A stretch of 34,367 bases of DNA. It comes from Gammaproteobacteria bacterium. Lineage in GTDB: Bacteria > Pseudomonadota > Gammaproteobacteria > GRL18. A model generated the notes under the pieces. That model had not been told where the DNA came from, ran no database searches, and saw nothing but the letters and a program-made list of their open reading frames with translations. Where the stretch lies: the NCBI GenBank assembly GCA_027071355.1, contig JALSUJ010000241.1, positions 1-34,367 of the forward strand. Direction: 5' to 3'. Made by a program: the position numbers and the translations under genes. Shown in pieces: positions 12,568 to 32,261 of the stretch (the first letter of the stretch is position 1; each line of letters starts with the position of its first letter).

Positions 12568-14115
12568 TTAGTGAACTGGTTGTAATGATAGGATACCGAC
12601 ATTGACACCGGTTCCTGATTCAAGAAACTGACCAGGAGGAACGTCCTCCCAAACATGCTTCCAGCCATCAACAACCGTTTTCCCTTTAAATGAACCAGGA
12701 ACAATGGCAACGATCTTGCCTTTACTGCTAAGCATGGCCGCTGCTTTTTTTAAATGTTCCATACATCTGCCATTTGAAAAAGGTGGATTTAGAACAATCT
12801 TATCGAACTTTTCCGTTTCATCCATCTTAATGAAGTCCTCCAGTCTCACCGTAAACCCTTTGCTCTTTAAGACACGGGCATGCAGGCGCGCAATGTCCAC
12901 ACACAAGGTTTGCTCTTTCGGTAAGAAATCAGCGATTCGACCCAGACCGGCACTGGGTTCAAGCACCCGGTCTTCGTCCTGGATTTCAGCCATATCCACC
13001 ACCTGTTTCGCCAGTCCCTCCGGGGTTTGGTAAAACTGATGGCTTTTAACTTCCGGCACCTGTCCCGAACGGATAATTTCATCAATTACCTCACGTATCG
13101 GATAATCAAAGCTCCATATTCCTTTTGTTATCTGCCGACCGTTAAGTCGTTCAAATAACGCAATGGTTTGTGGCTCTGCTTTCACTGGTTCATAAAAACA
13201 GGTTTCAGTGCCCCGTTCAAAACGGATATCTGACAGAATCTCAATAACATTCGCTGGCAACAATTCCATTTCAATCGGATGCTGCTTATAACGCACCGGT
13301 TTTTGTCGGAATGTCGCAGGAATAGCCATCGGGTATAACTGGGCCAGCACCTGGTTTAATCGATAAGCCATCATCGGATGACATTCTATATGAGCGGTAC
13401 CGCACTTAAAGACCTTCACCTTCCAGGCACCACCATCCATAATCTGCCATTTACCCTGTAAGCCTAAGTCAAACAGCCGCTCTAGTGAACGGCGCGTTAT
13501 ATAATGACCAGGAACCTCCCTGCCCATGAATTTTCCAATGACAACGCGAAAATCATGGATAACATCAGCCATATTAACATTTAGACTATGCCTGTCATCG
13601 AACACATAATTAATAATCATGCGCTTGCTAAAGCCTTCCGGGCGATTGGTAACATGCTCTCGCGATAGATTTTGAAAAATGCCATCAATTCTTTTTGCAA
13701 AGAATTCTGCTCTTTTCATAAGCAAATCATTTATCGTTGCATGAACCGTTTCGCGCTCAAACGCGGGGGTTTTGTGATTACTGATTTGTTCGCGCCATTC
13801 ACCACGCTCTTTGGCCGGCATGGCTTCAAGCACGTCGGTTAATGAAATGGCTTTGGACCAAAAATCGGCATCCAACGCTGCTTTGGCATTCTCAAAATTA
13901 AAAAATGTCGAAACCGTATAACAGCCAGTCCGGTGATTGATATATGCACCATCAAAAAAATACTGCATCACACTTGTTTTGGCTGCATTAACGTAATCCG
14001 TGATTTCGGTGATTTGTTCTAACGCTTGCTGGTATTGACCAAACAACGCCTCAAGCGGCGATGAAATAGCAATATCGGTACTCCCTTCAAAAGGGTGTTT
14101 TATTTCTTTTTTCAT
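12568..14115 (-). CDS. DUF4942 DNA methyltransferase
   Basis: A 515-residue protein. The N-terminal half matches DUF4942 proteins of plasmids and conjugative elements. The C-terminal half is a class I SAM methyltransferase with LEPSAGLGR (about 385-393) as motif I and LNPPF (about 442-446) as the NPPF catalytic motif, typical of N6-adenine or N4-cytosine methylases. Start 14115 is chosen for GGAGATAACAT just upstream; an in-frame ATG at 14151 lies inside the leader RNA. It follows leader L1. The likely role is to methylate element DNA against host restriction (inference). Confidence 0.85.
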   Translation of the reverse strand: MKKEIKHPFEGSTDIAISSPLEALFGQYQQALEQITEITDYVNAAKTSVMQYFFDGAYINHRTGCYTVSTFFNFENAKAALDADFWSKAISLTDVLEAMPAKERGEWREQISNHKTPAFERETVHATINDLLMKRAEFFAKRIDGIFQNLSREHVTNRPEGFSKRMIINYVFDDRHSLNVNMADVIHDFRVVIGKFMGREVPGHYITRRSLERLFDLGLQGKWQIMDGGAWKVKVFKCGTAHIECHPMMAYRLNQVLAQLYPMAIPATFRQKPVRYKQHPIEMELLPANVIEILSDIRFERGTETCFYEPVKAEPQTIALFERLNGRQITKGIWSFDYPIREVIDEIIRSGQVPEVKSHQFYQTPEGLAKQVVDMAEIQDEDRVLEPSAGLGRIADFLPKEQTLCVDIARLHARVLKSKGFTVRLEDFIKMDETEKFDKIVLNPPFSNGRCMEHLKKAAAMLSSKGKIVAIVPGSFKGKTVVDGWKHVWEDVPPGQFLESGTGVNVGILSLQPVH

Positions 14116-14232
14116 TATGTTATCTCCACATAAACGGAGACAATACCCCACCGGGAAGTTGTCCCCGATGGGTTTAAAAATACCTGGTTATCAGGTGATT
14201 AATGCTGTTTGTTTAACGTGGACAGTGACCAC
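14116..14232 (-). promoter_or_regulatory. Structured leader L1 (radC-type) of the DUF4942 gene
   Basis: 5' to 3' on the minus strand: hairpin GTGG/CCAC, ACAGCATTAA, hairpin CACCTG/CAGGT, then the switch core. S1 pairs CCCATCGGG with CCCGGTGGG. S2 pairs CGGGGACAA with TTGTCTCCG. S3 pairs TTGTCTCC with the Shine-Dalgarno region GGAGATAA. S2 competes with S1 and S3. Confidence 0.75.
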
Positions 14233-14267
14233 TTTCTGATCTGTTAAATTAAGTATGATTCAGAGTT

Positions 14268-14492
14268 TTAACTCTTCTTCGTTAAAATATAGCCTGGAGG
14301 ATAAAATTGAACTTTAAAAGTATCAAAATCCTCCCTTGTCGCCGGGCGAATGTCTTCCTCCTTAAAATAACATACCGGGGATTGCATCATTGATTTTCCA
14401 TCTCTTGTTCCCAGTCCGTTTAAGACGGTTAGACTATTGTTTTCAAGGACACACAGCGTGTTCTCTTTATAGACAACGGTTTTGTCTTCCAT
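14268..14492 (-). CDS. Small unknown protein in the radC operon
   Basis: A 74-residue protein beginning MEDKTVVYKENTLCVLENNS with an AGGAGG Shine-Dalgarno site. It starts 9 bases after the radC stop and so is co-transcribed. Beta-rich; no family recognised. Confidence 0.65.
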   Translation of the reverse strand: MEDKTVVYKENTLCVLENNSLTVLNGLGTRDGKSMMQSPVCYFKEEDIRPATREDFDTFKVQFYPPGYILTKKS

Positions 14493-14501
14493 TGCTACCT
14501 C

Positions 14502-14954
14502 CTATATTAATCCGTTTTCTACAAATGAGTAGATTTCATCACCCACAATCATGTGGTCCATGACGCGTACATCAATAAGATCCATCGCATCGACTAGACG
14601 TTTTGTAATGGCCTTATCGGCCCGACTTGGCTCACAATCACCCGATGGGTGGTTATGCGCACATATGATAGCGGCTGCATTATGCTTTAATGCCGCTCTC
14701 ACTACCTCCCTGGAATAAATGGCTGCACCGTTGATGCTGCCGTAGAATAATTCATCATAGCAAATAATCTTATGATGATTATCCATAAAAATGCATGAAA
14801 AAACTTCCTTTTTTTCATTTCTTAGTTTTAATTTCAGATACTTCTTTGTATCATCGCTTGATTTTAATGGATCTTCTTTTATACCTACTTCAAGAAGGCC
14901 TATTGCATAGGTTATTATTTCTTCTTTGGTTGCGTATTCTATTAAATCACTCAT
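14502..14954 (-). CDS. radC: RadC-family JAB domain protein
   Basis: A 150-residue RadC/MPN(+) domain. The metal-binding motif AHNHPSGDCEPSRAD gives His100, His102 and Asp113, with an upstream REVVRAAL helix. It lacks the N-terminal HhH region of chromosomal RadC, as is common for mobile-element copies often annotated YeeS/RadC. Start 14954 follows TTGGAGATAAAA; the longer frame to 15035 reads through the leader. Leader L2 precedes it. The biochemical role of RadC is unresolved; element-borne copies sit with anti-restriction genes. Confidence 0.9.
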   Translation of the reverse strand: MSDLIEYATKEEIITYAIGLLEVGIKEDPLKSSDDTKKYLKLKLRNEKKEVFSCIFMDNHHKIICYDELFYGSINGAAIYSREVVRAALKHNAAAIICAHNHPSGDCEPSRADKAITKRLVDAMDLIDVRVMDHMIVGDEIYSFVENGLI

Positions 14955-15100
14955 TTTTATCTCCAAAAATAAAGCGGAGATGAACCCAACAGGGTTCGAT
15001 CCCCGCCGGGTTGGTTTAGTAATACCGTGTATCAAACACGGTGGTTAATGCTGCTTGTTTTGCGTAGCCAGTTACTACGTTTAAAAGTCTCAATGAGACT
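14955..15100 (-). promoter_or_regulatory. Structured leader L2 of radC
   Basis: Minus strand order: hairpin GTCTCATTGAGAC, hairpin CGTAG-TAACTGG-CTACG, GCAGCATTAA, hairpin CACCGTG/CACGGT, then the core. S1 pairs AACCCGGCGGGG with CCCTGTTGGGTT. S2 pairs GCGGGGAT with ATCTCCGC. S3 pairs ATCTCC with the Shine-Dalgarno GGAGAT. The gene association fits the published radC RNA motif. Confidence 0.8.
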
Positions 15101-15110
15101 AGAAATCTAC

Positions 15111-15176
15111 TTTATCCAATGCAGACTGATTACAATCTGTATTGGATAAAGAACAGTGCGCGAAGCACTGTTCTTT
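15111..15176 (-). terminator. Two adjoining hairpins ending the upstream operon
   Basis: TTTATCCAAT/ATTGGATAAA with CAGA/TCTG (15111-15150) and AAAGAACAGTGC/GCACTGTTCTTT (15148-15176) are strong stems that share three bases, so they exclude each other partly. They lie between the zinc-ribbon pseudogene and leader L2 and probably terminate or attenuate transcription. Confidence 0.65.
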
Positions 15177-15193
15177 ATGTTCTCAAAATGAGA

Positions 15194-15493
15194 TTATGGT
15201 TTATCGTATTCTGCGTAAGGTGTTGTTTTATGAACAGGCTTACCGCATCCCCGGCAACGAAAAATTCCCCATAAGGAGTCTTTATTATCATCCGGATAGA
15301 AAATACGTTTTCGATCTGCTCTGCATGACGATGCCGCATTATATTCAACTAACATGGCTTCACCGCACGAACATGCCGTTTTGCGTACTCTTCGTTTGGC
15401 ACCACTATTTCAATCGGTTTCCACGAAAAGATTATCCGATAAAATAGCCGTAATTTGCCAATCACGTCCCACTGACTGCGTTTGTTTACTCAT
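15194..15493 (-). pseudogene. Zinc-ribbon protein gene with in-frame TGA
   Basis: From ATG 15493 the frame runs MSKQTQSVGRDWQITAILSD to a TGA at codon 28 (15410-15412). It then continues in the same frame for 71 codons to TAA 15194. The downstream part carries a treble-clef-like set: CSCG, then CRGCG near the end, and SLWGIFRCRGCGKPV. The start overlaps the stop of the preceding gene (ATGAGTAA). A single nonsense change from a TGG or CGA codon would explain it. Confidence 0.65.
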
Positions 15494-15812
15494 CGTTAAT
15501 CACCTTCGTTATGATTAATGTTTGACGGGCAAAGTTAATGAGTGAGTCATGCATATCCTCAACCAGGCCCTGAACACCGCATAGCGCCCAGTTCTCAAAC
15601 GGTTGCCAGACGATAAAACCTTCTGGCCATCCATCACTTTCATTCGCCTCCATAAATTCGTTACAAGGCGATGCGTAACTTCCTGGTTTGTCAGTGCCAT
15701 ACTGGTCTGCAGATGGAATGTCAGACATTGCCATCAATAAAGCCTGATGCCAGGCGGCTTGATCTAGCCTGGCATAAATCGACTGATCTAGTTGCTCCAA
15801 CGATTTAGTCAT
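15486..15812 (-). CDS. Unknown protein of the 16257 operon
   Basis: A 108-residue protein beginning MTKSLEQLDQSIYARLDQAA. Start 15812 follows GGAGGGATC. It overlaps the gene before it by eight bases and the following pseudogene start by eight. Many acidic and aromatic residues; no family recognised. Confidence 0.65.
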   Translation of the reverse strand: MTKSLEQLDQSIYARLDQAAWHQALLMAMSDIPSADQYGTDKPGSYASPCNEFMEANESDGWPEGFIVWQPFENWALCGVQGLVEDMHDSLINFARQTLIITKVINDE

Positions 15813-16257
15813 TTTGGATCCCTCCAGAATGAATATCACGATTCAAAGATTGAACAGCCGTAATAATAAAATCATTACAAACTGATTCCTTGCCTATAGA
15901 TAAACGAGCTTCTTCAAATCCCATACCATAATAAAATACATCATCATCGTTATAAGGTGAATTATCAGGTAAATCATTAAATGAACAGAATATTAATCCA
16001 CTATTTTCAGTTTGATCATCTATATACCGAATATCAACCTTATAAAAGATCGTATTAATTACTGATTCAATCAATTGAATATCCTCGCCGTTAAAAGGAC
16101 TGGATACCGGGTCATCCTCACTCAACGTCAGAATGTAGGAGGTATCTACCCCGAACATCCCGCCAGAGGCCATGTCTTTATATATAGTCACCGCAACAGG
16201 CGCATTACTTTGCGGGTCTGTCACGGTGACTTCTTGTATGAATATTGCATTATTCAT
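15805..16257 (-). CDS. Unknown acidic protein of the 16257 operon
   Basis: A 150-residue protein beginning MNNAIFIQEVTVTDPQSNAP with a beta-rich N-terminus and MASGGMFGVDTSYIL. Similar proteins occur in the anti-restriction region of plasmids and ICEs, but I know no function. AAGGAGATAAAA precedes the start. Leader L3 sits directly upstream. Confidence 0.65.
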   Translation of the reverse strand: MNNAIFIQEVTVTDPQSNAPVAVTIYKDMASGGMFGVDTSYILTLSEDDPVSSPFNGEDIQLIESVINTIFYKVDIRYIDDQTENSGLIFCSFNDLPDNSPYNDDDVFYYGMGFEEARLSIGKESVCNDFIITAVQSLNRDIHSGGIQND

Positions 16258-16330
16258 TTTTATCTCCTTCAAAAAGGTTAAATTTAAGGGAGATCAACCC
16301 TTTCGAGTTTCTCTCCCGATTGGGTTAAGC
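16258..16330 (-). promoter_or_regulatory. Structured leader L3, short form
   Basis: Only the core is present, right after the stop of the upstream gene. S1 pairs AACCC with GGGTT, S2 pairs GGGAGA with TCTCCC, S3 pairs ATCTCC with the Shine-Dalgarno GGAGAT. Confidence 0.7.
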
Positions 16331-16332
16331 GA

Positions 16333-16989
16333 TTACTCGCCGGTTTTTAGAAATGACTTACCAACCATAAAGGCCAGCCAGTGATAAGCCGCATCGATGC
16401 TTTTGAACCGCGCGTGGGTTTCATTATCAACACGGACTTCAGCTTCGTATTCATTCTCAAAAAATTCATGAAGGGTGAATACGCCATGGTGGTAATTATG
16501 GTGGCGAAAAAGCTCGACACCGGTTTTGGCATTGACAATTCGGACAATGCAATGATCCAGGATCGCCGGACCGCCAATGTCATCATCAATTAGAAGGGGC
16601 ACTTTTAAAGCCCCCGTTGATAGTCCTACTTTCCCGAGTACGTCAAACTCCTCAAGCCAGTCATTACCTGTCATGGTGTCGCCGTAGAAAAGGCGAACCG
16701 GCCATTGTTCGTCATACGCTTTTTTCAGTACACGACGCACGGCCAACGGTGTCTCAGCATGAAACCAGATCCCAAGGTCCCGGTTCTTTGCCAAAGCAAT
16801 CAGGGCCTGGTGATTGTTCCATACCCGTTTCGTGCCATACTCTTTATCTGTAACGGCATACGCTGGCTTTTTTAATCGCTTTGCCAACGCATTCGTTTCT
16901 TTGAAAAGGCTCTCAAAGCCTCGGGTTGTAACACAATCCCCATTGTTAAAAACATACAGGGATCGTGCCTGGTTTATCGTAATTTCCAT
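16333..16989 (-). CDS. Unknown protein of the conjugative-element type
   Basis: A 218-residue soluble protein beginning MEITINQARSLYVFNNGDCV. TPLAVRRVLKKAYDEQWPVR and DTMTGNDWLEE are typical of uncharacterised proteins found next to DUF6573 and radC in plasmids and ICEs. GGAGAACCATA precedes the start. It sits between leaders L4 and L3, so it can be controlled separately from its neighbours. Confidence 0.7.
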   Translation of the reverse strand: MEITINQARSLYVFNNGDCVTTRGFESLFKETNALAKRLKKPAYAVTDKEYGTKRVWNNHQALIALAKNRDLGIWFHAETPLAVRRVLKKAYDEQWPVRLFYGDTMTGNDWLEEFDVLGKVGLSTGALKVPLLIDDDIGGPAILDHCIVRIVNAKTGVELFRHHNYHHGVFTLHEFFENEYEAEVRVDNETHARFKSIDAAYHWLAFMVGKSFLKTGE

Positions 16990-17056
16990 TATGGTTCTCC
17001 ATAAAAAAAGCGGGAACCATCCCAGCGGGAAGATTCCCGCAAGGGTTAGTAAATGG
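16990..17056 (-). promoter_or_regulatory. Structured leader L4, short form
   Basis: S1 pairs CCC and GCGGG with CCCGC and GGG. S2 pairs GCGGGAA with TTCCCGC and is followed by a seven-T run, so this state resembles an intrinsic terminator. S3 pairs GGTTC with GAACC around the Shine-Dalgarno GGAG, a covarying change relative to ATCTCC/GGAGAT in other copies. Confidence 0.7.
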
Positions 17057-17058
17057 TG

Positions 17059-17595
17059 TTAGAAAAAGCCCTGCCGGGGACAAGATTTTGACGGCTGCAA
17101 GGAGGCATAATCGGCCTTTTCATCAAAACTGAATTTAAGCGGGTTTTTTATCCCACCAACCAGTTCAGAAAAGGGTTTTGATACCCATCGCTCCAACGCC
17201 AGTAACTCATTAGGCGTTTTGCCATCGATAACTTTCGCGTCATAGTGTCTGAAGGTTAAGACATCAATCTGATCCGTTATCAGTTCGCAATGCATCAGAC
17301 AGCCCCAGGTTTTTCCTGTTTGCTGATCCACGCACAGGTGCCCAACATCCAGCAAAATCCCATACTGGCGTAACTGCTCCTCCGTCATGGCGGCTACTTT
17401 ATCCGCCGGCAGGTTGTGCCTGGCCAGCCAGATGTTGGCATCCATGCCACCAAAGTTGCCATAACCTTCATAGGCCGGCTCATAAATAGGCGGTTCTCCG
17501 CCTGGTTGTAATAAATACACCGGGCGACATTCGTCCGTGTATTGGTTCATCACTGATTCTTCAGTGTCGGCAGTAAGCCATGAAAAAAATCCCAT
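17059..17595 (-). CDS. Unknown protein of the conjugative-element type (GFFSWLTADT family)
   Basis: A 178-residue protein with the N-terminal motif MGFFSWLTADTEESVMNQYT and YLLQPGGEPPIYEPAYEGYG, which I recognise as a common family of unknown function in plasmid and ICE anti-restriction regions. GGAGATCATCC precedes the start. It lies between leaders L5 and L4. The C-terminus is probably flexible. Confidence 0.75.
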   Translation of the reverse strand: MGFFSWLTADTEESVMNQYTDECRPVYLLQPGGEPPIYEPAYEGYGNFGGMDANIWLARHNLPADKVAAMTEEQLRQYGILLDVGHLCVDQQTGKTWGCLMHCELITDQIDVLTFRHYDAKVIDGKTPNELLALERWVSKPFSELVGGIKNPLKFSFDEKADYASLQPSKSCPRQGFF

Positions 17596-17663
17596 AGGAT
17601 GATCTCCTCTATTAGTTAATGAAGCAGGACATCCTGACAGATATACCCGCTTCGGTTTAAATA
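17596..17663 (-). promoter_or_regulatory. Structured leader L5, divergent
   Basis: S2 pairs GAAGCGGG with CCTGCTTC. S3 pairs AGGATG with CATCCT around the Shine-Dalgarno GAGGAGAT. S1 is weak in this copy. It starts right after the DUF6573 stop codon. Confidence 0.5.
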
Positions 17664-18077
17664 TTAATCCTCGTTCAGTAACAAGATTGTGATAACCGGT
17701 TCGCCGGCATCACCCGGTCCGATGATGAGTTTCAGTGTGACCAGTTCCGATTTCGTCGAGTGCCCGTCACGAGCGACCCGATACAACCGGAACATCAACC
17801 GGTCACCTGAATCCTGGCTGGTGCGAACAGCCAGGGAGGCCATATAAAGGACATCCCATAGCCTGCCCGCCTGATCATTGGCAACCTGCTGATCACTGTC
17901 CTACTCAGACCAGTCTACACAGTCATCCCATGCTGCGCGGGTAAGCGCCACGGGAAACTTGAAACCAGCCTCTTTAGCCATGTCAGGCACATCAACTAAA
18001 TAACCATCCTCGATGGCCATTTTTCTCGTGTAACGGGAAACAACATCACCGAACAGTGAATGAACTTCATTGTGCAT
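17664..18077 (-). pseudogene. DUF6573-type gene with an in-frame TAG
   Basis: From ATG 18077, with a strong AGGAGG Shine-Dalgarno site, the frame gives LFGDVVSRYTRKMAIEDGYL then VDVPDMAKEAGFKFPVALTR and AAWDDCV, the DUF6573 pattern. Codon 59 (17901-17903) is TAG within DWSE*DSDQ, where the family normally continues. The same frame then runs on to RLWDVLYMA, LKLIIGPGDAGEPVITI and TAA 17664. All 137 positions are otherwise in frame, so a recent single-base nonsense mutation or suppression is likely. Confidence 0.8.
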
Positions 18078-18150
18078 TACTGCACCTCCTGTAATAATGA
18101 AGGTGCACCACCCACAGGGTTATGCACCCTCTGGGTTAAATGCTTTTGTT
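18078..18150 (-). promoter_or_regulatory. Structured leader L6 of the DUF6573 gene
   Basis: AAAAGCATTTAACCC leads into the core. S1 pairs CCCAGAGGG with CCCTGTGGG (one mismatch), S2 pairs AGGGTGCA with TGCACCTT, S3 pairs TGCACCT with AGGTGCA in the Shine-Dalgarno AGGAGGTGCA. The unusual sequence keeps all three pairings. Confidence 0.75.
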
Positions 18151-18285
18151 CATGCTACAATCACAACATGAAATTAACATCAATTAATGGAAATCGTGCC
18201 AGGCTGGAAAAGGAAATCGTCAAAGCCCTCTTCGAGGGTAATCTTGACGATGATTCACTCAAGCGGCTTCGTCCAAAGGGAAATC

Positions 18286-18489
18286 TCACGCTTTGTAAAT
18301 CTCATTCAACTCCAGTCGGGCAACCAGTTCCTGATCAATCAAACGAAGACCCAGCTTAATATCCGCTTTCGATTCGTCTGTCGATACTTCCAGTTCCGCT
18401 TTGAGAAAGCGGTTTTTCTTTAACAGGATTTCATCTTCTGATGCCTGTTCGAGCCACTTTATAAAAGCTCTTATTGTTGTTTTATCCAT
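18286..18489 (-). CDS. Small helical protein under leader L7
   Basis: A 67-residue protein beginning MDKTTIRAFIKWLEQASEDE with GGGAG ahead of the start. It is strongly helical and charged; EILLKKNRFLKAELEVSTDE suggests a coiled coil. The stretch 18151-18285 after it holds no minus-strand gene. It is preceded by the longest leader of the set. Confidence 0.65.
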   Translation of the reverse strand: MDKTTIRAFIKWLEQASEDEILLKKNRFLKAELEVSTDESKADIKLGLRLIDQELVARLELNEIYKA

Positions 18490-18883
18490 CGTGATCTCCC
18501 GCCCAGATGGGCAAAAATTCAAAGGAGATCATCCCTGGGGATGGATCCCCTGGGGGTTAAGAAAGGTGCAGGTAGTACCTGCACAGTTAATGCTGATTAT
18601 TTTAAGTGGCCAGTTACCACCTTTATGTCTCAGATGAGACAGAAATTCACTTTGGTCGAGCGCCCGCAAGCCATCGGCCAAAATAAACTGGGTTTGTTGT
18701 AGTAATACTGGGAAATGAAAGTGATACGTCATCGACGGTAGAGGCACGGCCTACCGGGTGGTATCGGATTGTGTTGGTCACCGGTTACCCTGTGACCAGG
18801 AAGATACTTTTTGTTTTGCGTGGCGAGCTACCACGGTCTTGGTCAGACAGGGTAATTATTGAGTATTATTAGCGTGCTGTCAA
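18490..18883 (-). promoter_or_regulatory. Long structured leader L7 with its promoter
   Basis: Promoter TTGACA (18878-18883), 17 bases, AATAAT (18855-18860). The leader of about 365 bases then carries hairpins GTGG/CCAC, GGTCAC/GTGACC and CGGTAG/CTACCG. After these come GTCTCATCTGAGAC, GTGG-TAACTGG-CCAC, TCAGCATTAA, GTGCAGG/CCTGCAC and the core: S1 CCC/GGG plus GGGG/CCCC, S2 AGGGGATC with GATCTCCT, S3 TGATCTCC with the Shine-Dalgarno GGAGATCA. About 225 bases (18630-18860) are nearly identical to 24475-24705. Confidence 0.8.
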
Positions 18884-18887
18884 GTTG

Positions 18888-19209
18888 TTAGATAACATCT
18901 TGTCGATGATATTCAGCACAACTAACGACTGCCCATGCTGTGTTACGCTGCTTATCGTGTTGAGTTCCCTCTTGACCTGGAATGGCCTGGCATGCAGGCG
19001 ACGCAAGCATAATTTCATGTTTGGGCACCAGGCTTCAGTCCTCCTGGTGAAGATCCTGACATAGATGATCAGTAGAAGTATGGTTGGCTAAGTAAAACTG
19101 AACGGCTAACGGCCAATGGTTCGCTGCCCATACAACATCAATATTAGCCAAGTTTGCACCTTCAGTAAATCCGCCTGCCTGCAAATAAAATCGTTAATAT
19201 CTTTAACAT
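18888..19209 (-). pseudogene. Cytosine-5 DNA methyltransferase remnant
   Basis: From ATG 19209: MLKILTILFAG, then after a two-base loss AGGFTEGANLANIDVVWAAN and HWPLAVQFYLANH, a TGA at 19035-19037 where the family has Trp, then SLVPKHEIMLASPACQ with the PC-type catalytic region. A further frame slip follows and then NTAWAVVSCAEYHRQDV. These are the first motifs of DNA cytosine-5 methyltransferases. Only about the first third remains; the 3' end is cut where the L7 promoter begins. The start overlaps the stop of the preceding gene (TAATG). Confidence 0.85.
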
Positions 19210-19655
19210 TATTTCCATTTTATAAAGTCTCTTCCATCTGTTATTTTAATAATGATCAAGGACAACATCTTTATGTCTTTATCTATTAGATATCTATCAG
19301 TTCCGCAAATTACTCGGATATCGGCAAGTGTTAATTTCCAGACTAATTCCCAGTCACCGGGATAAAAATACGATTCAATTTTCCAGCAATAGTACATCTC
19401 ATTATTTAACCCATGGCCATAATCAAGATATTTGGCAATATTTCTCGCTAATTCAATATTTGCACGAAACAAAACATATGGTGACCTTTCCAGTGTTTTT
19501 CCTTTAAATAATAATTTAGGCTTAAAATGACCATGGCATGAAGCAATGGTTTTACATACATTATCTTTATTTAGTGCATCAACCAAAGGTCTTATCCTTG
19601 CTTCAATAGCACCGCTTTCCCTGGCTTTATCGTAAGATTGTAATTTTTTATTCAC
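19209..19655 (-). CDS. Unknown protein upstream of the methylase remnant
   Basis: A 148-residue protein with GTG start and no clear Shine-Dalgarno site. RIRPLVDALNKDNVCKTIAS then CHGHFKP resembles a small family with an S-C-x-G-H motif, reminiscent of Tyw3-like proteins; the similarity is only by eye. YVLFRANIELARNIAKYLDY follows. It overlaps the methyltransferase start and is probably its operon partner. Confidence 0.65.
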   Translation of the reverse strand: MNKKLQSYDKARESGAIEARIRPLVDALNKDNVCKTIASCHGHFKPKLLFKGKTLERSPYVLFRANIELARNIAKYLDYGHGLNNEMYYCWKIESYFYPGDWELVWKLTLADIRVICGTDRYLIDKDIKMLSLIIIKITDGRDFIKWK

Positions 19656-19696
19656 TAATTTATTATGTCGCTGTTGTATTTTTACAGTGATTTATC

Positions 19697-19722
19697 ATAC
19701 TCTTTGTTTGGAGTATATTATA
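19697..19722 (-). promoter_or_regulatory. Promoter -10 and operator of the 19655 gene
   Basis: TATAAT on the minus strand (19717-19722) is directly followed by the inverted repeat ATACTC-N8-GAGTAT (19697-19716), a near match to the 18-bp repeats at 27845 and 29461. The -35 box is poor. Confidence 0.6.
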
Positions 19723-19742
19723 ACAGAATCGTAATAAAACAG

Positions 19743-19774
19743 CGACATACCAACCCATATGGGTCGGTATGTCG
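19743..19774. terminator. Strong terminator hairpin after the 20257 gene
   Basis: CGACATACC-ACCC and GGGT-GGTATGTCG pair across an ATAT loop with one mismatch; T-rich sequence follows on both strands (GTTTTGTCT on plus, CTGTTTTATT on minus). Confidence 0.8.
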
Positions 19775-19783
19775 TTTTGTCTG

Positions 19784-20257
19784 TTAAAGTTTCTGATAAA
19801 GATCATCAAGTAGTATTTCGGTACCGGTGACCGTCAGATGACTAATGTAGGCCTTGTCAGCCTCATCACCCCTGCGTTTCACCGTAACCGGTTCTGGTGC
19901 ATCAACATCATCAAGAATATCAAAATCAATGAGGATGCACTGCAGCCCTTCCAGTGACGGGTCATTAGTCACAACACCGTGAGGCATTCCATCGCTCATT
20001 AGCACTGAAAGTAGAGGTTGAGGCTGATTTGTAACCAGGTATTTCTCAACATCCGACCATTCCCAATCATCTTCCATTTCTAAAACTTGCTCCTTGACTA
20101 CTGTTTGATGATAAGTCGCTAACGAATTTGCTGTGTCACGAACAGACTCTTCCGATGTGCTATTGTCTGAACCTTCATCAAATGATGTGATATAGCTATC
20201 ATTTAGATAAAGCCCAATAGAGGAACCAATAACGACCAAATTAACAATCGGTTTCAT
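19784..20257 (-). CDS. Unknown acidic protein coupled to ATPase 1
   Basis: A 157-residue protein beginning MKPIVNLVVIGSSIGLYLND, overlapping the ATPase gene by 17 bases and so translationally coupled. It is very acidic (MEDDWEWSDVEKYL, DFDILDDVDAPE). It may work with the ATPase; no family recognised. Confidence 0.65.
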   Translation of the reverse strand: MKPIVNLVVIGSSIGLYLNDSYITSFDEGSDNSTSEESVRDTANSLATYHQTVVKEQVLEMEDDWEWSDVEKYLVTNQPQPLLSVLMSDGMPHGVVTNDPSLEGLQCILIDFDILDDVDAPEPVTVKRRGDEADKAYISHLTVTGTEILLDDLYQKL

Positions 20258-21914
20258 TGTGATCCTCCTGATTCTCTTCGACCATCAGTTTGCCTTCGTG
20301 AATCGTTATGATATAACGCCCATCCAGGTCATTTAGCAGAATATCTTTTTTCTCTAACTGCTGTTCTAGCACGGTTGCCGAACTCACCCCTCGATGTAAC
20401 TGAATAAAGTTTGCAAAAGCGCTCTCCTCTTGATCTTTAAGATAGAGATTGACATCGCCTTCTTCATCATCATAAAAATCACACAACTGGCTCACTACCC
20501 CGCCATCATTCACATCGCGAGGAATATAGATGACATGGTTCGTTTCAGATAGATCTTTCAACGCCACGCCAGTATTATTGATTATTTTTACATAATTACC
20601 CAGTGTCAGTTTTACATTTTCGCAAAAGACAACAGTTGCCTCAACAACCTGTCCCTGAAAGAACGCCGATTGCGTCACACCAACGGGTATGGCTGAAGAA
20701 GGCAATTCACTGATGGTTTGCACATAAGGCAGCGCCCAATGCTCTCTATCCAGGAAGTGATCCTCAATAAAACGCCAGTTCGGATTCCCGTACATCATCA
20801 ACCAGCCTATCGCTGTCTCTTCCGTGAAGTTTTCCTGCTTAAACAGTTGGACGGTACCCTCTTTTAACTCCTGATGGGTAATTAACCGTCCTATTCCCTT
20901 GCCAGTTGATAAGAAAGGTTGTGCGGGGCATTCGTCCACATCCCGGTAAGGCTGTGAGGCAACCCACCGCATTGCAATCAGGGGTAGATACGTTAACCGG
21001 TTATAAATATGATACAAATGCATATCAATAATCGTACTTCTTATCTGATGATCATTGATATCCTCACCTGCAGCCAGGCGGGCATTGATATCATTCTCCC
21101 AAAGCATCGATAAAACGCTCTTGATCTCGTTGATCACATGATCCTGATCGACCAGTTTATCCCGATCCGGAAGCCGGGCTTGATACCGCGATGCATCCAG
21201 GTGGATGATAATCGGGGTATCTGCAGCTGTATTTTTATACACCAGTAATCCCTGCAAATAGACACGCATTTGTATGCCATATGTGAATGGTCCTTCATCA
21301 CTTAGCCCAGGAATCAACATTTGACCCATGGTTGTCTCTTCGTAAGAAGACAGCTGATCCAAAGCGTGATCCCGGTTAAATATCTCTCCATTGAGTGAGA
21401 CCGTTAATGGAAAGCCTCGGGCGTAATGTCTTAATGCCCGCTGAATACCAACCGTAAAGGTTGGATCCTGATCGGGAATCGAGACATTATTCATCCGAAT
21501 CAATGTCCCGGTACGACGCTCAGTTCGCGTGACCGTCACCTCTTTAAAAGCCAGAACATCCTGACAATTAAAGGTAAGACAACGACCACCGCTTTCAATG
21601 ACCATTGACTCACAATTAAATAACAAGGATAAGAAACCCAGCCCAAACGGGGTTTCTTTCTCGATGATATCCGCCGGCCAACCACTGCTGGCCACCTTTA
21701 ACAGGTCTTCCATATCCCCAATACCGTTGCCGTTATCCTCAATTTGAAGATACCGATTGTCTTCGGAAGGATGGGTGCTAAAACGTACCTCGGTTGCGCC
21801 AGAACGTCTGGCGTTTTGCATGGCTTCCGCCAAAAAGCCGGTTGTCTCGGTAAAGGCAAACGGCAATGATTGGACCAACTGCTTTCCGTTGATCGAAAGT
21901 TTGATTTTATTCAT
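20241..21914 (-). CDS. GHKL ATPase 1
   Basis: A 557-residue protein with an N-terminal GHKL (Hsp90/MutL/histidine kinase type) ATP-binding domain. The N box is EAMQNARRSGATEV (about residues 29-42), the G1 box IEDNGNGIGDMED (about 63-75), and ETPFGLGFLS (about 92-101) forms the ATP lid. A second MutL-like region follows (YLQGLLVYKN, LPDRDKLV) and the rest is unknown. Start 21914 follows GGAGATATTCC under leader L8. It is a paralogue of the gene at 23814. Such stand-alone ATPases occur on plasmids; the role is unknown. Confidence 0.8.
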   Translation of the reverse strand: MNKIKLSINGKQLVQSLPFAFTETTGFLAEAMQNARRSGATEVRFSTHPSEDNRYLQIEDNGNGIGDMEDLLKVASSGWPADIIEKETPFGLGFLSLLFNCESMVIESGGRCLTFNCQDVLAFKEVTVTRTERRTGTLIRMNNVSIPDQDPTFTVGIQRALRHYARGFPLTVSLNGEIFNRDHALDQLSSYEETTMGQMLIPGLSDEGPFTYGIQMRVYLQGLLVYKNTAADTPIIIHLDASRYQARLPDRDKLVDQDHVINEIKSVLSMLWENDINARLAAGEDINDHQIRSTIIDMHLYHIYNRLTYLPLIAMRWVASQPYRDVDECPAQPFLSTGKGIGRLITHQELKEGTVQLFKQENFTEETAIGWLMMYGNPNWRFIEDHFLDREHWALPYVQTISELPSSAIPVGVTQSAFFQGQVVEATVVFCENVKLTLGNYVKIINNTGVALKDLSETNHVIYIPRDVNDGGVVSQLCDFYDDEEGDVNLYLKDQEESAFANFIQLHRGVSSATVLEQQLEKKDILLNDLDGRYIITIHEGKLMVEENQEDHNETDC

Positions 21915-22053
21915 GGAATATCTCCAAAAAAATGGGGACATTCTCCCCGATGGGAAGTGTCCCCATCGGGTTTAAGTTACCTGGTTTTTACCAGGTGATT
22001 AATGCTGCTTGTTTAGCGTAGCCAGTAACTACGTTTTAAAGTCTCAATGAGAC
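21915..22053 (-). promoter_or_regulatory. Structured leader L8 of ATPase 1
   Basis: Hairpins GTCTCATTGAGAC and CGTAG/CTACG, GCAGCATTAA, hairpin CACCTGGT/ACCAGGT, then the core: S1 CCCGATGGG with CCCATCGGG, S2 TGGGGACA with TGTCCCCA followed by seven T, S3 AATGTCCCC with the Shine-Dalgarno GGAGATATT (one mismatch). Confidence 0.8.
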
Positions 22054-22120
22054 AGTAATTTGTTTTTCCTATAAAGACGCGCAGGCATCCTTATGGGGAA
22101 AGCAAATAACGTTTAATAAT

Positions 22121-22157
22121 AATGATACTCTCCCACATTATGTGGGTGAGTATCATT
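22121..22157 (-). terminator. Terminator after ATPase 2
   Basis: AATGATACTC-CCCACA and TGTGGG-GAGTATCATT form a long stem just after the ATPase 2 stop. ATTATTATT follows on the minus strand. It separates the two ATPase genes. Confidence 0.8.
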
Positions 22158-22161
22158 GCGC

Positions 22162-23814
22162 TTAAAGTGCCTTAACGGTAATTTTATCGCCGTTGATCGA
22201 CACAGTGTAATCACCGGTAAGCTTTTCAAACCTGCCTGGTGACAAGTTGTTTAACATCGCCAATAAAATATTAGCTGGATCCTTGCCGCGTTCAATAGCC
22301 GCAAACTGGTTAAATAAGATTTCTTCACGATCCCTTGCATCCTCATTAACCTCTTCGTTGTTAGTGAAGTAGTTTAACTGCCTGACAACTTCCCCTGGCG
22401 ATTGATCCTTTACGGGAAGATAGATTGTATTATCATCATCCCATCTAGTACCACAATCAAAACCCATGGCTTCATCATCAATAATGGCAACCAGGTCTCC
22501 GTATTGAATTTGATAGCTATCACAGAAAATAACCTCCGCATTCACCCAGTCACCACAATACATTGACTTGACTGCTTTCACCGCCGTTATCGTTGGTGTC
22601 ACTGCAGCAAAGTCCTTGATGTAAGCTTGGGCCCAGTGATTTCTATCGAGTTGAGTCCGATCGATAATGTAGTCACCGCGTGCTTTCATCAACATATAAA
22701 GCGGGATGTTTGATGCTTGAATAGGCTCTTCGTTAACAAGAACCGTCCGTCCCTGTTCAACTTCTTCCTGATAAACAGGTATCGTTGCTTGTAGGAGATA
22801 ATTAAAATTATCGTAATAATCCAGAACGGGGTATTCATTCTCATCAACATAGCTTAAACAAGCCGGCGGCAGTGCGGGGATATCATTCAACATGGCTTCT
22901 AAGTCGAAATATTTAACCGTATCGAACCATTCGTCTATCAGTTTATATCCCTGGTCGGTCTTTTTCAGTTCCATGAAATAACGACGCCAGTGATTAACCA
23001 CTGCCTGGTAGACCGGCTTAATGACCTCTCCTTCATTAATCAATTTATCCCTGTCCGGCAAGCGGGCAGTAAATAAGGTCGAATCCAGGTGGATAATGTT
23101 CCGATTGGCAAGATTCCCGCGTTCGGATTGATAGACAGGTAAGCCTTGCAAATACACCTTCAGGTTTTGTGAGCGGTGCCCGTCAGTGTTCATCCCGGGC
23201 ATGCCCGAAACGCAAAGAGACCCAATCCCCGGTTCCTTCTCAAAATGCAAAGTCCCATTTAGCGCATGCGGTCTGTCCATCTCCTTACCGTTATAAAAAA
23301 TGCTGACCGGAAAACCTTCTACCATCCTGTTAATATTGTATTCAACATAATGGCTTTTCCCCTGGCGTGTTTCCGGCACTTTAAAGCCAACCAGTTCAAT
23401 GATCGTGCCCGGTTGGCTATTTCTTGCCGGAACAACCTTCTCACGACTACCCGCAAGAAGGGCTTTCGTGTTGAAGTCAAGATATTTGCCGTTTGACTCA
23501 ACGCAGATCACATCACTGCTGTAAATAGCGGATAACCAACCTAAGCCAAACGGGTTTTCCTGCAGGGTTGTCTCATCATCCCACCCCGATTCTGCCAGGG
23601 TGAGTAACTTCTGCATATCATCAATCCCGCAACCATCATCAATGATCGTTAAACGGTCCTTTTCTTCTTCATACCACAGTTCAATATGTGTGGCTTTTGC
23701 CCGTCGGGCATTTTGCAGCGCTTCAGATATTACTGTTGTGCTGTTTGAGAAGGCGTGTCGCATATTTTGTAGCATACCTTCTTTGTTTATTTTAATAGCA
23801 ACTGATGTTGTCAT
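22162..23814 (-). CDS. GHKL ATPase 2
   Basis: A 550-residue paralogue of the gene at 21914. N box EALQNARRAKATHIEL (about residues 31-46), G1 box IIDDGCGIDDMQK (about 56-68), lid ENPFGLGWLSAIY (about 86-98), then KVYLQGLPVYQS and RLPDRDKLI shared with ATPase 1. Start 23814 is chosen for AGAGGAAAAAGTG upstream; a 44-codon in-frame extension overlaps the leader and the previous gene and is not preferred. It carries no S1/S2/S3 leader, so the two ATPases may be differently regulated. Confidence 0.8.
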   Translation of the reverse strand: MTTSVAIKINKEGMLQNMRHAFSNSTTVISEALQNARRAKATHIELWYEEEKDRLTIIDDGCGIDDMQKLLTLAESGWDDETTLQENPFGLGWLSAIYSSDVICVESNGKYLDFNTKALLAGSREKVVPARNSQPGTIIELVGFKVPETRQGKSHYVEYNINRMVEGFPVSIFYNGKEMDRPHALNGTLHFEKEPGIGSLCVSGMPGMNTDGHRSQNLKVYLQGLPVYQSERGNLANRNIIHLDSTLFTARLPDRDKLINEGEVIKPVYQAVVNHWRRYFMELKKTDQGYKLIDEWFDTVKYFDLEAMLNDIPALPPACLSYVDENEYPVLDYYDNFNYLLQATIPVYQEEVEQGRTVLVNEEPIQASNIPLYMLMKARGDYIIDRTQLDRNHWAQAYIKDFAAVTPTITAVKAVKSMYCGDWVNAEVIFCDSYQIQYGDLVAIIDDEAMGFDCGTRWDDDNTIYLPVKDQSPGEVVRQLNYFTNNEEVNEDARDREEILFNQFAAIERGKDPANILLAMLNNLSPGRFEKLTGDYTVSINGDKITVKAL

Positions 23815-23885
23815 CACTTTTTCCTCTAGTAAGTAAGGCAACCTTTGGGTTGCCTTACGTTGAATAAATATGAAACCACTAATAA
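23815..23885 (-). promoter_or_regulatory. Simple hairpin before ATPase 2
   Basis: GTAAGGCAACC and GGTTGCCTTAC (23833-23858) form a perfect 11-bp stem with a four-base loop, ending 9 bases or so before the Shine-Dalgarno site. It may be an attenuator, RNA stabiliser or weak terminator of the upstream pair. Confidence 0.6.
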
Positions 23886-24197
23886 TCAGCAATTTCGTTT
23901 GACAGGACGATCTTCGCCTGTTGGTTGAAAAAATGAGGCTAACCACTTCCAGTTATAGGCTGGGAAAACAGTTAGCTCACTTTCTTTTTTTACAAAACAA
24001 GGTGGTTCGCCATCAATGATGGCGATGGCTGATGCAAATTTCTTTGTATCTTCTTTATCGAGATAGGCTACAAATCTGTATTTATCCAGATAGGCCACAT
24101 CCATTTTGCTGTGGTTTGTTATCTTTTTTAAAATCCCTATATCGACTAGAAGATGTACAGGGACTTCTGTTTTTTCTTGAACGACGTTATATCTCAT
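23886..24197 (-). CDS. Unknown protein under leader L9
   Basis: A 103-residue protein beginning MRYNVVQEKTEVPVHLLVDI with GGAG upstream. The duplicated-looking YLDKYRFVAYLDKEDTKKF is notable. It overlaps the stop of the small membrane protein by 11 bases. No family recognised. Confidence 0.65.
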   Translation of the reverse strand: MRYNVVQEKTEVPVHLLVDIGILKKITNHSKMDVAYLDKYRFVAYLDKEDTKKFASAIAIIDGEPPCFVKKESELTVFPAYNWKWLASFFQPTGEDRPVKRNC

Positions 24198-24345
24198 AAC
24201 GTTCTCCGGAAAAAAAAACAAACAGACCTGAACAAAAAACCAGATCTGAAAATAACAAAGCCAGGAGGCTATTCAGGCTTGAGCTTGCACTCAGACCCAT
24301 CATCGCCGCCATAGCAACAAGAATAAAAAGAATAATTAATTTCAT
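24187..24345 (-). CDS. Small membrane protein under leader L9
   Basis: A 52-residue hydrophobic protein, MKLIILFILVAMAAMMGLSA then SLLALLFSDLVFCSGLFVFF, with one or two membrane segments. It has GGAGATAAC before its ATG, is directly preceded by leader L9 and is coupled to the next gene. It could be a toxin-like peptide or a leader peptide for its partner; that is inference. Confidence 0.6.
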   Translation of the reverse strand: MKLIILFILVAMAAMMGLSASSSLNSLLALLFSDLVFCSGLFVFFSGERYEI

Positions 24346-24728
24346 TGTTATCTCCTTCGAGAAAGGAGATCAATCCCCGCAGGGAATGATCCCCTTGGGG
24401 TTAAGAAAGATGCAGACAGGTGCCTGCACGTTTAATGCTGATTGTTTTGCGTAGCCAGTTACTACGTTTTATGTCTCAGATGAGACAGAAATTCACTTTG
24501 GTCGAGCGCCCGCAAGCCATCGGCCAAAATAAACGGGGTTGTCATAGTAATACTGGGGAATGAAAGTGATACGTCATCGACGGTAGAGGCACTGCCTACC
24601 GGGTGGTATCGGATTGTGTTGGTCACCGGTTACCCTGTGACCAGGAAGATACTTTTTGTTTTGCGTGGCGAGCTACCACGGTCTTGGTCAGACAGGGTAA
24701 TTATTGGTGATTTAAGATGGGTTGTCAA
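24346..24728 (-). promoter_or_regulatory. Long structured leader L9 with its promoter
   Basis: TTGACA (24723-24728), 17 bases, AATAAT (24700-24705), then about 355 bases of leader, of which the first 225 nearly match L7. After these come GTCTCATCTGAGAC, CGTAG-TAACTGG-CTACG, TCAGCATTAA, GTGCAGG/CCTG, and the core: S1 CCCC/GGGG, S2 AGGGGATCA with TGATCTCCT, S3 ATCTCCTT with AAGGAGAT at the Shine-Dalgarno site. Confidence 0.8.
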
Positions 24729-24832: not shown

Positions 24833-25765
24833 TTATCTACGTTGACGACGTGCTACCCCGACAAGCCCCAGTAAACCGCTTCCAAATAGCCATACAGCTG
24901 CGGGAACAGGTACAGCACTAACAGACGCAGCGGTGACGGATGTAGCTGAATATGGCTTGACTATGCGATAGCCTAAGCTGGATCCAGTGATTGTAAAATC
25001 GCCTAATACAGCATATTCGCCACGGTTAGTTGGGTTATCACCACAAGTTTTGGACGCTATTAGGTATGGCGTTAGTTTACTGTAGTCGCAAGTGGCCCAG
25101 TAACCTGTGCCTAGCATGCTTACTGGTTTACCTATAAGTTCATCTACATATGCTTTTATATCTGCCATTGTTTTAACCACCCCAAATTTGTAACTGCTAG
25201 TGGTTACTGATCTTGTCTTTGGAAAGGCACTGGTGGTAGTAAAATCTATTGGTATTCGAACTGATATTATTGGCATTCCATAAAAAGCACCCGTAGTGTT
25301 TTCATAGCCGCTTTCATAGGCAAAGTTTTTATAATGATAAAAACTTTGCTGTACAATATGATCTACCGAAATATCAACATTCGGTTTACCAGTAGCAGGA
25401 TCCAGTTTTTTATCAATTGAAAATTCATTGTATGGTAAAAATTCACTAGTTGAACCTGTCAAGGCAAAGCCTGCCGTATTAGGAGGACTTGGCACAGCAT
25501 AAGGATTTGGATCATATGGAATATAATTTATAAGATCCAGAGTCATCGTTCTTTGAACATGCACAGGTTTCGCAAAAGTGTATTGTTGCAAGGGACCTCT
25601 ATTATAGCTGTAATGAATAGTATTAAATGATTGGTCATAATTTATGTTAATGACGGGCGTGGCATTCATGGGTACATCAGCTATGCTAGTGACAGTTGCT
25701 GCTTGACACTGGAAGGCTGACGCTACCAAAAAAAGGCCAGATATTAGTTCTATTTTTTTTCTCAT
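24833..25765 (-). CDS. VPxPA-CTERM sorted exported protein
   Basis: A 310-residue protein with a signal peptide (MRKKIELISGLFLVASAFQC then QAA) and a C-terminal sorting signal: VPVPAAVWLFGSGLLGLVG then VARRQRR. This is the VPxxxP/PEP-CTERM type pattern that an exosortase would process at the envelope. The middle is beta-rich and Ser/Thr/Tyr-rich with no catalytic motif seen. Start 25765 is chosen because CAGGAGAAAATA lies directly upstream; that Shine-Dalgarno unit is duplicated. No exosortase is in the window, so it would rely on a host enzyme. Confidence 0.8.
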   Translation of the reverse strand: MRKKIELISGLFLVASAFQCQAATVTSIADVPMNATPVININYDQSFNTIHYSYNRGPLQQYTFAKPVHVQRTMTLDLINYIPYDPNPYAVPSPPNTAGFALTGSTSEFLPYNEFSIDKKLDPATGKPNVDISVDHIVQQSFYHYKNFAYESGYENTTGAFYGMPIISVRIPIDFTTTSAFPKTRSVTTSSYKFGVVKTMADIKAYVDELIGKPVSMLGTGYWATCDYSKLTPYLIASKTCGDNPTNRGEYAVLGDFTITGSSLGYRIVKPYSATSVTAASVSAVPVPAAVWLFGSGLLGLVGVARRQRR

Positions 25766-25896
25766 TATTTTCTCCTGATTTTCTCCTGTTGATATCAATT
25801 GTATTTTATCGTTTGTTAAAATTTATATTTGGCCTGAAGGTGGGTGTTTTTTATCACTTTCAAAGAAAGTTGATAGAGATATGGTAGATCGCTCGA

Positions 25897-30030: not shown

Positions 30031-31419
30031 GACAGGCCAAACAGGGGTAGATCGCTGTATGGCATTCGATTTCTGTATCGACAAGTGCTTCACTGGCGGC
30101 GATTTGATGTACCCATTCAGTATCCAAAACGCGCACAGAAGATTCCAGAACTGCTAACAAGACAGGAGGTAAAACGAATTATTGATGCCTGTGATAATCA
30201 AAAATATCGAACCATGTTGCTCACCTGCTATGGGTGTGGATTACGCGTCAGTGAGTTAGTCGCCTTAAAAGTTCATCATATCGATGGTGAACGCAAACTG
30301 CTACGTGTTGAGCAGGGTAAAGGCGCCAAAGATAGAGCCGTTGTTTTACCGTTGACCTTATTGACGGCATTACGTCAGTACTGGCAGCGATACCACCCCA
30401 AATACTGGCTGTTTCCTAATAGCAACACGCCTAAATGCCACTTGAGTATTACCAGCGTACAGAAAATATTCAAACAGGCAAAAACGAAAACCGGGATACA
30501 GAAAGTCGGCGGTATCCACAGCCTGCGCCATGCCTATGCCACCCACCAGCTGGAAAATGGCCTGGCGATTCATAAACTACAGCAACAACTGGGTCATACC
30601 AACCTGCAATCGACCTTATGTTACGTCCATTGGGTTCCGGGTTATCTACAGGGTAATACTATTTTTAGTGATCTGCTGCAGCAACTGGGCATGAGCGCCA
30701 TCCTGCATACCTGGGGACAGACGCTTGACCAGCATGTCCATCTACACTGCCTGATCCCTGGCGGGGTCATCAATACCCAGCAAGGCTACACCCGCACACA
30801 ACGCGCCTATTTATATCCCGAACGTGTCTTATCACGGCTGTTTCGGGGAAAAATGGTCAGCGCCCTGCGTCAGGCAGCCAAAGACGGCAAACTATCACGC
30901 ATTACCCGTCCCGGCGACATAGACGATACCCTCAATGCCGTGATGAAAAAAGACTGGGTTATCCATACCAAAGCACACATTAAAAAACCGGATACCGTCA
31001 TTGCCTATCTGGGACGATACACTTGTCGCACCGCCATCAGCCTGTCACGTATTATGGATGTGGATGATAAAAGTATCTGGTTTAAGTATAAAGACTATCG
31101 CGATGATAAGAAAAAAGTCATGCAACTGGCAGGCACCGAGTTCCTGCGCCGCTTTTTGTTACACATCCTGCCCAAAGGCTTTATGCGAGTTCGCCATTAT
31201 GGCTACCTGGCCAACCGGGTGCGGGTAGAGAAAATCAAACAGATACGTCAGAGCCTTGAGGTAGAACAAGTGGAAAAGCCGGAAGCTAAAAACTCAGCGG
31301 GTGAATACAGCCGCCACAATGAAACGGAAAAACCCTGCCCCGGCTGCAAAGCGGGTTACCTGCATCTGATTGGACTGATCCCGTCAGAAAAAGAGCGACG
31401 ACAGATGCTGACTGTTTAG
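30031..31419 (+). mobile_element. IS91-type remnant: tyrosine recombinase fused to IS91 transposase
   Basis: A single 444-residue frame from ATG 30085, open back to 30031 without a start. Residues 1-185 are the catalytic part of an IS91-associated tyrosine recombinase, with R54 (GLRVSEL), H145-R148 (HSLRHA), H171 (LGHTN) and Y180 (CYVHW). From about 195 the IS91 transposase follows, with HUH motif HVHLH (217-221) and YLGRY (308-312) as the two-tyrosine motif, ending with CPGC and CKAG. The N-termini of both proteins are missing, so a deletion fused the two genes in frame. The upstream end is also truncated. 31420-31678 holds no gene. Confidence 0.8.
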
Positions 31420-32027: not shown

Positions 32028-32261
32028 TTAATTCGTCTTTGTTGTTAACAAGCGATTGCCGATCACATCTTTCACCCTTACCTTGTCGCCTGATGTGATT
32101 GAATCCTCGCAAATAATATTCCAGTGAACTACTCCCGCTAAATCAAAGATTCTAACGTGAGCTTCCTGTGACCCATCATCGCGTTGAGCGATAACCTCTC
32201 GTACCACACCTGCGCTGACAGGTATTATGGCAGGGAACGACTTTACACAGACACAGGGCAT
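32028..32261 (-). CDS. OB-fold (NfeD-like) fragment
   Basis: A 77-residue ORF: SAGVVREVIAQRDDGSQEAH then VRIFDLAG and DSITSGDKVRVKDVIGNRLL. The G-D-K-V-R-V-K-D-V-x-G ending resembles the OB domain of NfeD-type proteins. The first 15 or so codons overlap the end of tnpB, so the true start was lost when IS605 inserted. It ends one base before the TraC fragment start (TAATATG). Confidence 0.45.
   Translation of the reverse strand: MPCVCVKSFPAIIPVSAGVVREVIAQRDDGSQEAHVRIFDLAGVVHWNIICEDSITSGDKVRVKDVIGNRLLTTKTN

Follow-up and report, generated by a model that had tools for sequence, protein, structure and literature searches.

Much multidrug resistance in enteric bacteria resides on IncC plasmids and SXT/R391 elements, whose transcription activators, AcaCD and SetCD, have been mapped. 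At antibiotic-resistance genes, translational attenuators of the erm and cat type use a stalled leader peptide and serve one gene each. The bet leader in SXT/R391 integrative and conjugative elements and IncA/C plasmids has been described as a translational attenuator (Garriss et al. 2013, via PMC4542580); PMC4542580 presents bet as highly transcribed, with its translation hindered. In the literature found, a translational layer of control in IncC and SXT/R391 elements is documented for this one gene. The STAXI motif (PMC2864571) is an RNA structure that occurs in repeated copies on mobile elements, close to their ssb, topoisomerase, antirestriction and integrase genes. Here we describe a family of RNA leaders in contig C241 of a gammaproteobacterial genome (4.17 Mb in 696 contigs) and compare it with these systems; the window below is this whole contig, 34,367 bases. 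Judged from sequence, this leader family exists, is widespread and has no entry in Rfam; covariation of all three stems, S1, S2 and S3, shows that the three-way switch in its members is real as well.

Each leader comprises six alternating strands: C1 (AACCC), G1 (GGGG and a variable word, X), C2 (CCC), G2 (GGG), B (X′ with CUCC) and the Shine-Dalgarno (SD) strand. S1 is formed within the first four strands, S2 pairs G1 with B, and S3 pairs B with the SD strand. Strand B is thus common to S2 and S3, which makes these two stems mutually exclusive, and S3 covers the ribosome site. G-rich and C-rich words occur in every leader and make raw stem energy a weak proof of pairing; we therefore asked whether the duplex energy of each leader's own strands is better than the energy obtained when strands are exchanged among leaders, a test that keeps composition. 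In the window alone (eight leaders, with the degenerate L5 excluded) own strands won for S1 (z = −4.1, 0 of 5000 permutations as good), S2 (z = −4.7, 0 of 5000) and S3 (z = −3.5, 8 of 5000), against z = −1.0 for a control pairing of the G strand with the SD strand. The values for S2, S3 and the control were −14.0, −12.3 and −0.2 in 51 leaders, and −14.5, −14.2 and −1.5 in 70 leaders chosen only through an upstream element, M1, described below.

Larger sets came from a covariance model, R2, trained on seven window leaders and 32 plasmid leaders. Its structure holds S1 and the S3 core and lacks S2, so that on its matches the test of S2 is free of structural selection and that of S3 only partly so. 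Across 78 clusters of R2 matches (∼70% identity) z was −20.1 for S2, −15.4 for S3 and 0.4 for the control, and in the 46 of these clusters that lie outside the training set −13.8, −12.1 and 0.3. X lies within the seven bases that follow the G-run, and these also matched B (z = −10.9). Swaps confined to one source gave the same picture for S1, S2 and S3: −5.7, −7.4 and −7.1 within an IncC plasmid, −6.7, −8.2 and −5.9 within the Vibrio plasmid pVPH1, and −6.1, −7.7 and −5.5 within the genome of the window (window plus contig C461). Column-wise covariation in the model alignment was 0.177 versus 0.135 for S1 and S3 together and 0.319 versus 0.272 for S2, in both cases above all 500 shuffles. RNAalifold on a raw MAFFT alignment detects the CCC/GGG core only, as the variable words are misaligned there. 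A preliminary description of this DNA had proposed that the S2 and S3 pairings covary, that strand B sits in either S2 or S3, leaving the ribosome site free in the former and closed in the latter, and that each gene has its own copy; the analysis supports each of these points.

The nine leaders, L1 to L9, all on the minus strand, lie where that description placed them, save that each position it quoted is 1 nt upstream of the start codon itself. L1 (14113–14177; R2 E = 3.5e-17) precedes a DUF4942/methyltransferase gene (12568–14115, minus strand); its S1 arms are 14172–14162 and 14157–14146, strand B is at about 14143–14135, the SD strand at about 14127–14120 and the start codon at 14115–14113. 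L2 (14952–15015; E = 2e-16) precedes a radC-like gene (14502–14954) with a RadC domain (Pfam, E = 7.2e-44). L3 (16255–16329; E = 1.6e-15), L4 (16987–17050; E = 1.4e-14) and L6 (18075–18140; E = 4.6e-13) stand before open reading frames (ORFs) at 15805–16257, 16333–16989 and 17901–18077. L7 (18487–18561; E = 1.7e-7), before the ORF at 18286–18489, has an additional hairpin separating B from the SD strand. L8 (21912–21975; E = 7.5e-16) serves a GHKL-ATPase-like gene (20241–21914) and L9 (24343–24405; E = 1e-18) the ORF at 24187–24345. Eight of the leaders show all three stems, as had been stated for every one of them; the exception is the degenerate L5 (17593–17660, before the ORF at 17059–17595; E = 3.1e-4), where the AACCC arm is absent, there is no proper S3 and the minimum-energy fold is an S2-like hairpin. 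R2 thus recovers nine of nine, eight at E ≤ 1.7e-7 and L5 weakly, with L5 and L7 outside its training set. A leader of this kind heads nearly all genes in one block of the plasmid-like contig. Elsewhere in the window it finds nothing comparable, only a weak antisense match at 14142–14204 (E = 0.006).

R2 matches extend well beyond the window. On the IncC plasmid pPROV073-2 there are 25 copies between 41.8 and 71.9 kb, all on one strand, upstream of the majority of genes in one block, among them ssb, bet, exo, DUF3150, VWA and methylase genes, the bet leader being a clear member of the family. The Vibrio plasmid pVPH1 has 32 copies at 66–97 kb, again before most genes of one block, and plasmids of Shewanella ANA-3 and V. 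gigantis have 10 and 3 copies, before several genes each. Nine copies in 10 kb, singled out in the preliminary description, is a correct count and a modest one by the standards of the family. In the genome of the window R2 gives 36 matches (E ≤ 0.1), almost all of them, about 30 copies, on contigs C241, C461 and C337. At E ≤ 1e-7, 18 of 143 gammaproteobacterial genomes (the present one included) have matches, mostly two or more copies, and none was found in 15 control genomes, which had been picked through chance pattern matches and are mostly non-Proteobacteria. An earlier scanner combining regular expressions with energies was dropped in favour of the covariance model as too unspecific (519 matches versus 170 on shuffled sequence). 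The products encoded behind the leaders include DUF3150, CbbQ/CobS-type AAA, SSB, RecT, YqaJ/DUF3799 nucleases, DNA methylases, RadC, toprim and YfbR; most of them serve the DNA metabolism of mobile elements. This spread to IncC-type, Vibrio and Shewanella plasmids, together with the element M1, is what the present analysis adds to the preliminary description.

M1 consists of a variable hairpin, a hairpin with the loop UARCUGG, and then AAACAARCAGCA. Its covariance model, R3, places it before five window leaders, on the minus strand: L1 (14199–14268, with the variant loop UCACUGU; E = 1.9e-9), L2 (15045–15114; E = 3.8e-12), L7 (18587–18655; E = 7.8e-12), L8 (21999–22068; E = 1.1e-10) and L9 (24432–24501; E = 1e-13). 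A pattern scan of GTDB gave at least 116 stretches, many of which lie in mobile elements of Proteobacteria and some of which are chance matches. Among the matches listed, a leader follows within 190 nt in 76 of 146, and in an unselected check all 76 leader-associated copies have three or four of the four stem pairs. In an alignment restricted beforehand to copies with intact stems, each of the four stem pairs has changed on both sides, and the CUG of the loop is without exception complementary to the CAG of the tail, which is compatible with an H-type pseudoknot. On two annotated plasmids M1 precedes 12 of the 14 leaders lying more than 60 nt from the upstream stop codon and none of the 26 with shorter gaps; at several short-gap leaders the UAA of UAACCC is itself the stop codon of the upstream gene. 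M1 is an optional module, because it is absent from several leader-rich genomes. Inspection by eye gave no consistent support for M1 as a leader peptide or mini-ORF. M1 also occurs in other settings. On contig C571 of the same genome (locus L133, 2167–2236) it has no proper leader and lies immediately upstream of a ribonucleotide-reductase-like gene (963-aa ORF, assigned by eye), and at L016, L037, L039, L049, L052, L056, L093, L113, L121 and L123, mostly betaproteobacterial contigs, it is followed by other hairpin-rich sequence instead of an S1–S3 leader. A near-identical repeat of ∼330 bp upstream of L7 and L9 (18529–18862 and 24374–24706, minus strand) holds a decayed M1 copy with the loop UAGCUCG (R3 E = 0.005 at 18801–18870).

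We consider it likely that each leader is a bistable translational attenuator acting gene by gene, as folding predictions indicate; at the structural level the mechanism is well supported by the strand pairings. From these pairings we infer which state is open and which closed. In state 1 (S1 and S3) C1–G1 would fold back on C2–G2 while B masks the ribosome site, and in state 2 (S2) G1 would pair with B around a small C2:G2 hairpin, the refolded 3′ half of S1, with the ribosome site exposed; the predicted number of unpaired nucleotides in a 6-nt SD window is 1.0 in state 1 versus 3.5 in state 2. Predicted energies favour S1 and S3 in 85 of 100 full-length leaders (mean 6.4 kcal/mol) and S2 in 75 of 100 transcripts ending just after strand B (mean 3.1 kcal/mol). 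Because of these energies of full-length and truncated RNA, S2 would be expected to form first on the nascent transcript and to win until the SD strand is made, after which the closed state should prevail unless a ribosome or a factor keeps the leader open. Each gene of a block would thereby be gated separately. The placement rule of M1 suggests, with some uncertainty, that each leader responds to something local immediately upstream of it: a terminating ribosome where a gene ends no more than about 45 nt before the leader, or M1 where there is no such gene.

The role of M1 admits another reading, which we hold to be a real contender although somewhat short of an even chance: M1 may be a put-like processive antitermination or Rho-protection element, carrying RNA polymerase over untranslated gaps in a long operon and separate from the leader switch. 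Its preference for gaps above 60 nt would fit this role, as would its recurrence inside co-oriented gene blocks and not only at their start, and its two adjacent hairpins are reminiscent of the put RNA of phage HK022; the many leader-bearing elements that lack M1 speak against it.

The leaders themselves might instead be static dampers, in which S1 and S3 just hold translation down, S2 being no more than an intermediate or side product of folding with no regulatory role. The lower energy of the closed state in 85 of 100 leaders would agree with this, and so would bet, given its high transcription and hindered translation as described in PMC4542580. The pairing constraint on S2 is, however, at least as strong as that on S3 (z −20 versus −15) and includes the word outside the G-run (z −10.9), which makes a purely static damper unlikely in our view. 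Less probable still, and by a wide step, is a transcription attenuator, in which S2 plus a U-run would end transcription. The preliminary description took seven T after S2 in L4 and L8 as a hint of it, and these runs are real; four or more U within 3 nt of the end of S2 occur in 25 of 107 leaders, and the run is absent in most. Nor is T enriched after S2 (0.44, not above the 0.52 of the remaining loop), so that the runs are not typical of the family and termination was rejected as its general output.

Several points weigh against the bistable attenuator as well. For 15 of 100 leaders the full-length prediction already places S2 below the closed state, the energies are single-sequence predictions, and M1 cannot be the general input, because many leader-bearing genomes are without it. 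The bet attenuator already reported is probably one copy of the family, to judge by its position.

Extended to whole elements, the bistable attenuator would amount to a control layer of IncC- and Vibrio-type conjugative elements in which almost all genes in the block for DNA metabolism and establishment have their own co-transcriptionally timed leader; the block would be open to translation only while it is itself transcribed, or while the gene before is translated, and would then lock, with M1 standing in for the upstream ribosome at gaps. We offer this extension tentatively and think it rather improbable in its full form. Blocks of conjugative-plasmid genes do seem to be translationally gated one by one. 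If this is true, tens of plasmid genes on each element, among them ssb, bet and exo as well as methylase, RadC-like and primase-like genes, would be individually gated by one RNA design absent from Rfam, which could account for highly transcribed plasmid genes yielding little protein, and the leaders would provide dozens of naturally occurring variants on which bistable RNA folding could be tested.

The window also carries, on the minus strand, a PRTRC ThiF gene (1136–1930; TIGR03736, E = 4e-75) and a ParB gene (4599–6332), which together are a plasmid-type cassette. C241 is probably a piece of a plasmid or integrated element, because PRTRC ThiF, ParB, RadC, the DUF4942/methyltransferase and two GHKL-type ATPase genes are present. 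The last two are diverged paralogues with GHKL/HSP90-like ATPase domains (20241–21914 and 22162–23817, minus strand), with a leader, L8, only at the first; a third paralogue lies on contig C461. Other features are an unusual-looking fusion of a phage-integrase domain with a following Y2 transposase domain (ORF 30085–31419, plus strand), a TnpB gene of IS200/IS605 type (32243–33385, minus strand) and an ORF (24833–25798, minus strand) ending in a PEP-CTERM-like sorting signal (VPLPAAVWLFGSGLLGLVGVARRQRR).

Among known systems the radC RNA motif (RF01754), a proteobacterial 5′ leader that takes its name from radC, is the one with which the preliminary description linked the leaders, on the strength of gene associations (radC, DNA methylase) that fit the motif, and this membership is almost certainly wrong: L2 does lie upstream of a RadC-domain gene, as the motif would, yet placement alone does not confer membership, and the 149-position model matches nothing in the window (E ≤ 1), at the RadC and methylase leaders L1 and L2 (E ≤ 10) or in the whole genome (E ≤ 10). 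Rfam scans at relaxed thresholds of the window and of L1 and L2 gave chance matches only, and at gathering scores there was no match, to RF01754 or any other family, at the leaders of related plasmids or at 18 related loci. STAXI shares with our leaders the repeated RNA structure beside mobile-element genes; it is built of tandem pseudoknots, however, and no Rfam match to it appeared in the window, the related plasmids or the 18 loci. The S2 alternative, M1 and dozens of copies per element have no description in Rfam 15 or in the open-access literature searched, which is not proof of novelty. With the erm and cat attenuators the leaders have in common mutually exclusive hairpins that hide or free the ribosome site; they differ in that one design recurs ahead of most genes in a block and that no leader peptide was identified, on consideration by eye only, with no systematic search. 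The bet attenuator is located at a leader of this family and is said to hinder translation; in PMC4542580 it is reported for one gene only, whereas the leader family stands before some 25–32 genes per plasmid.

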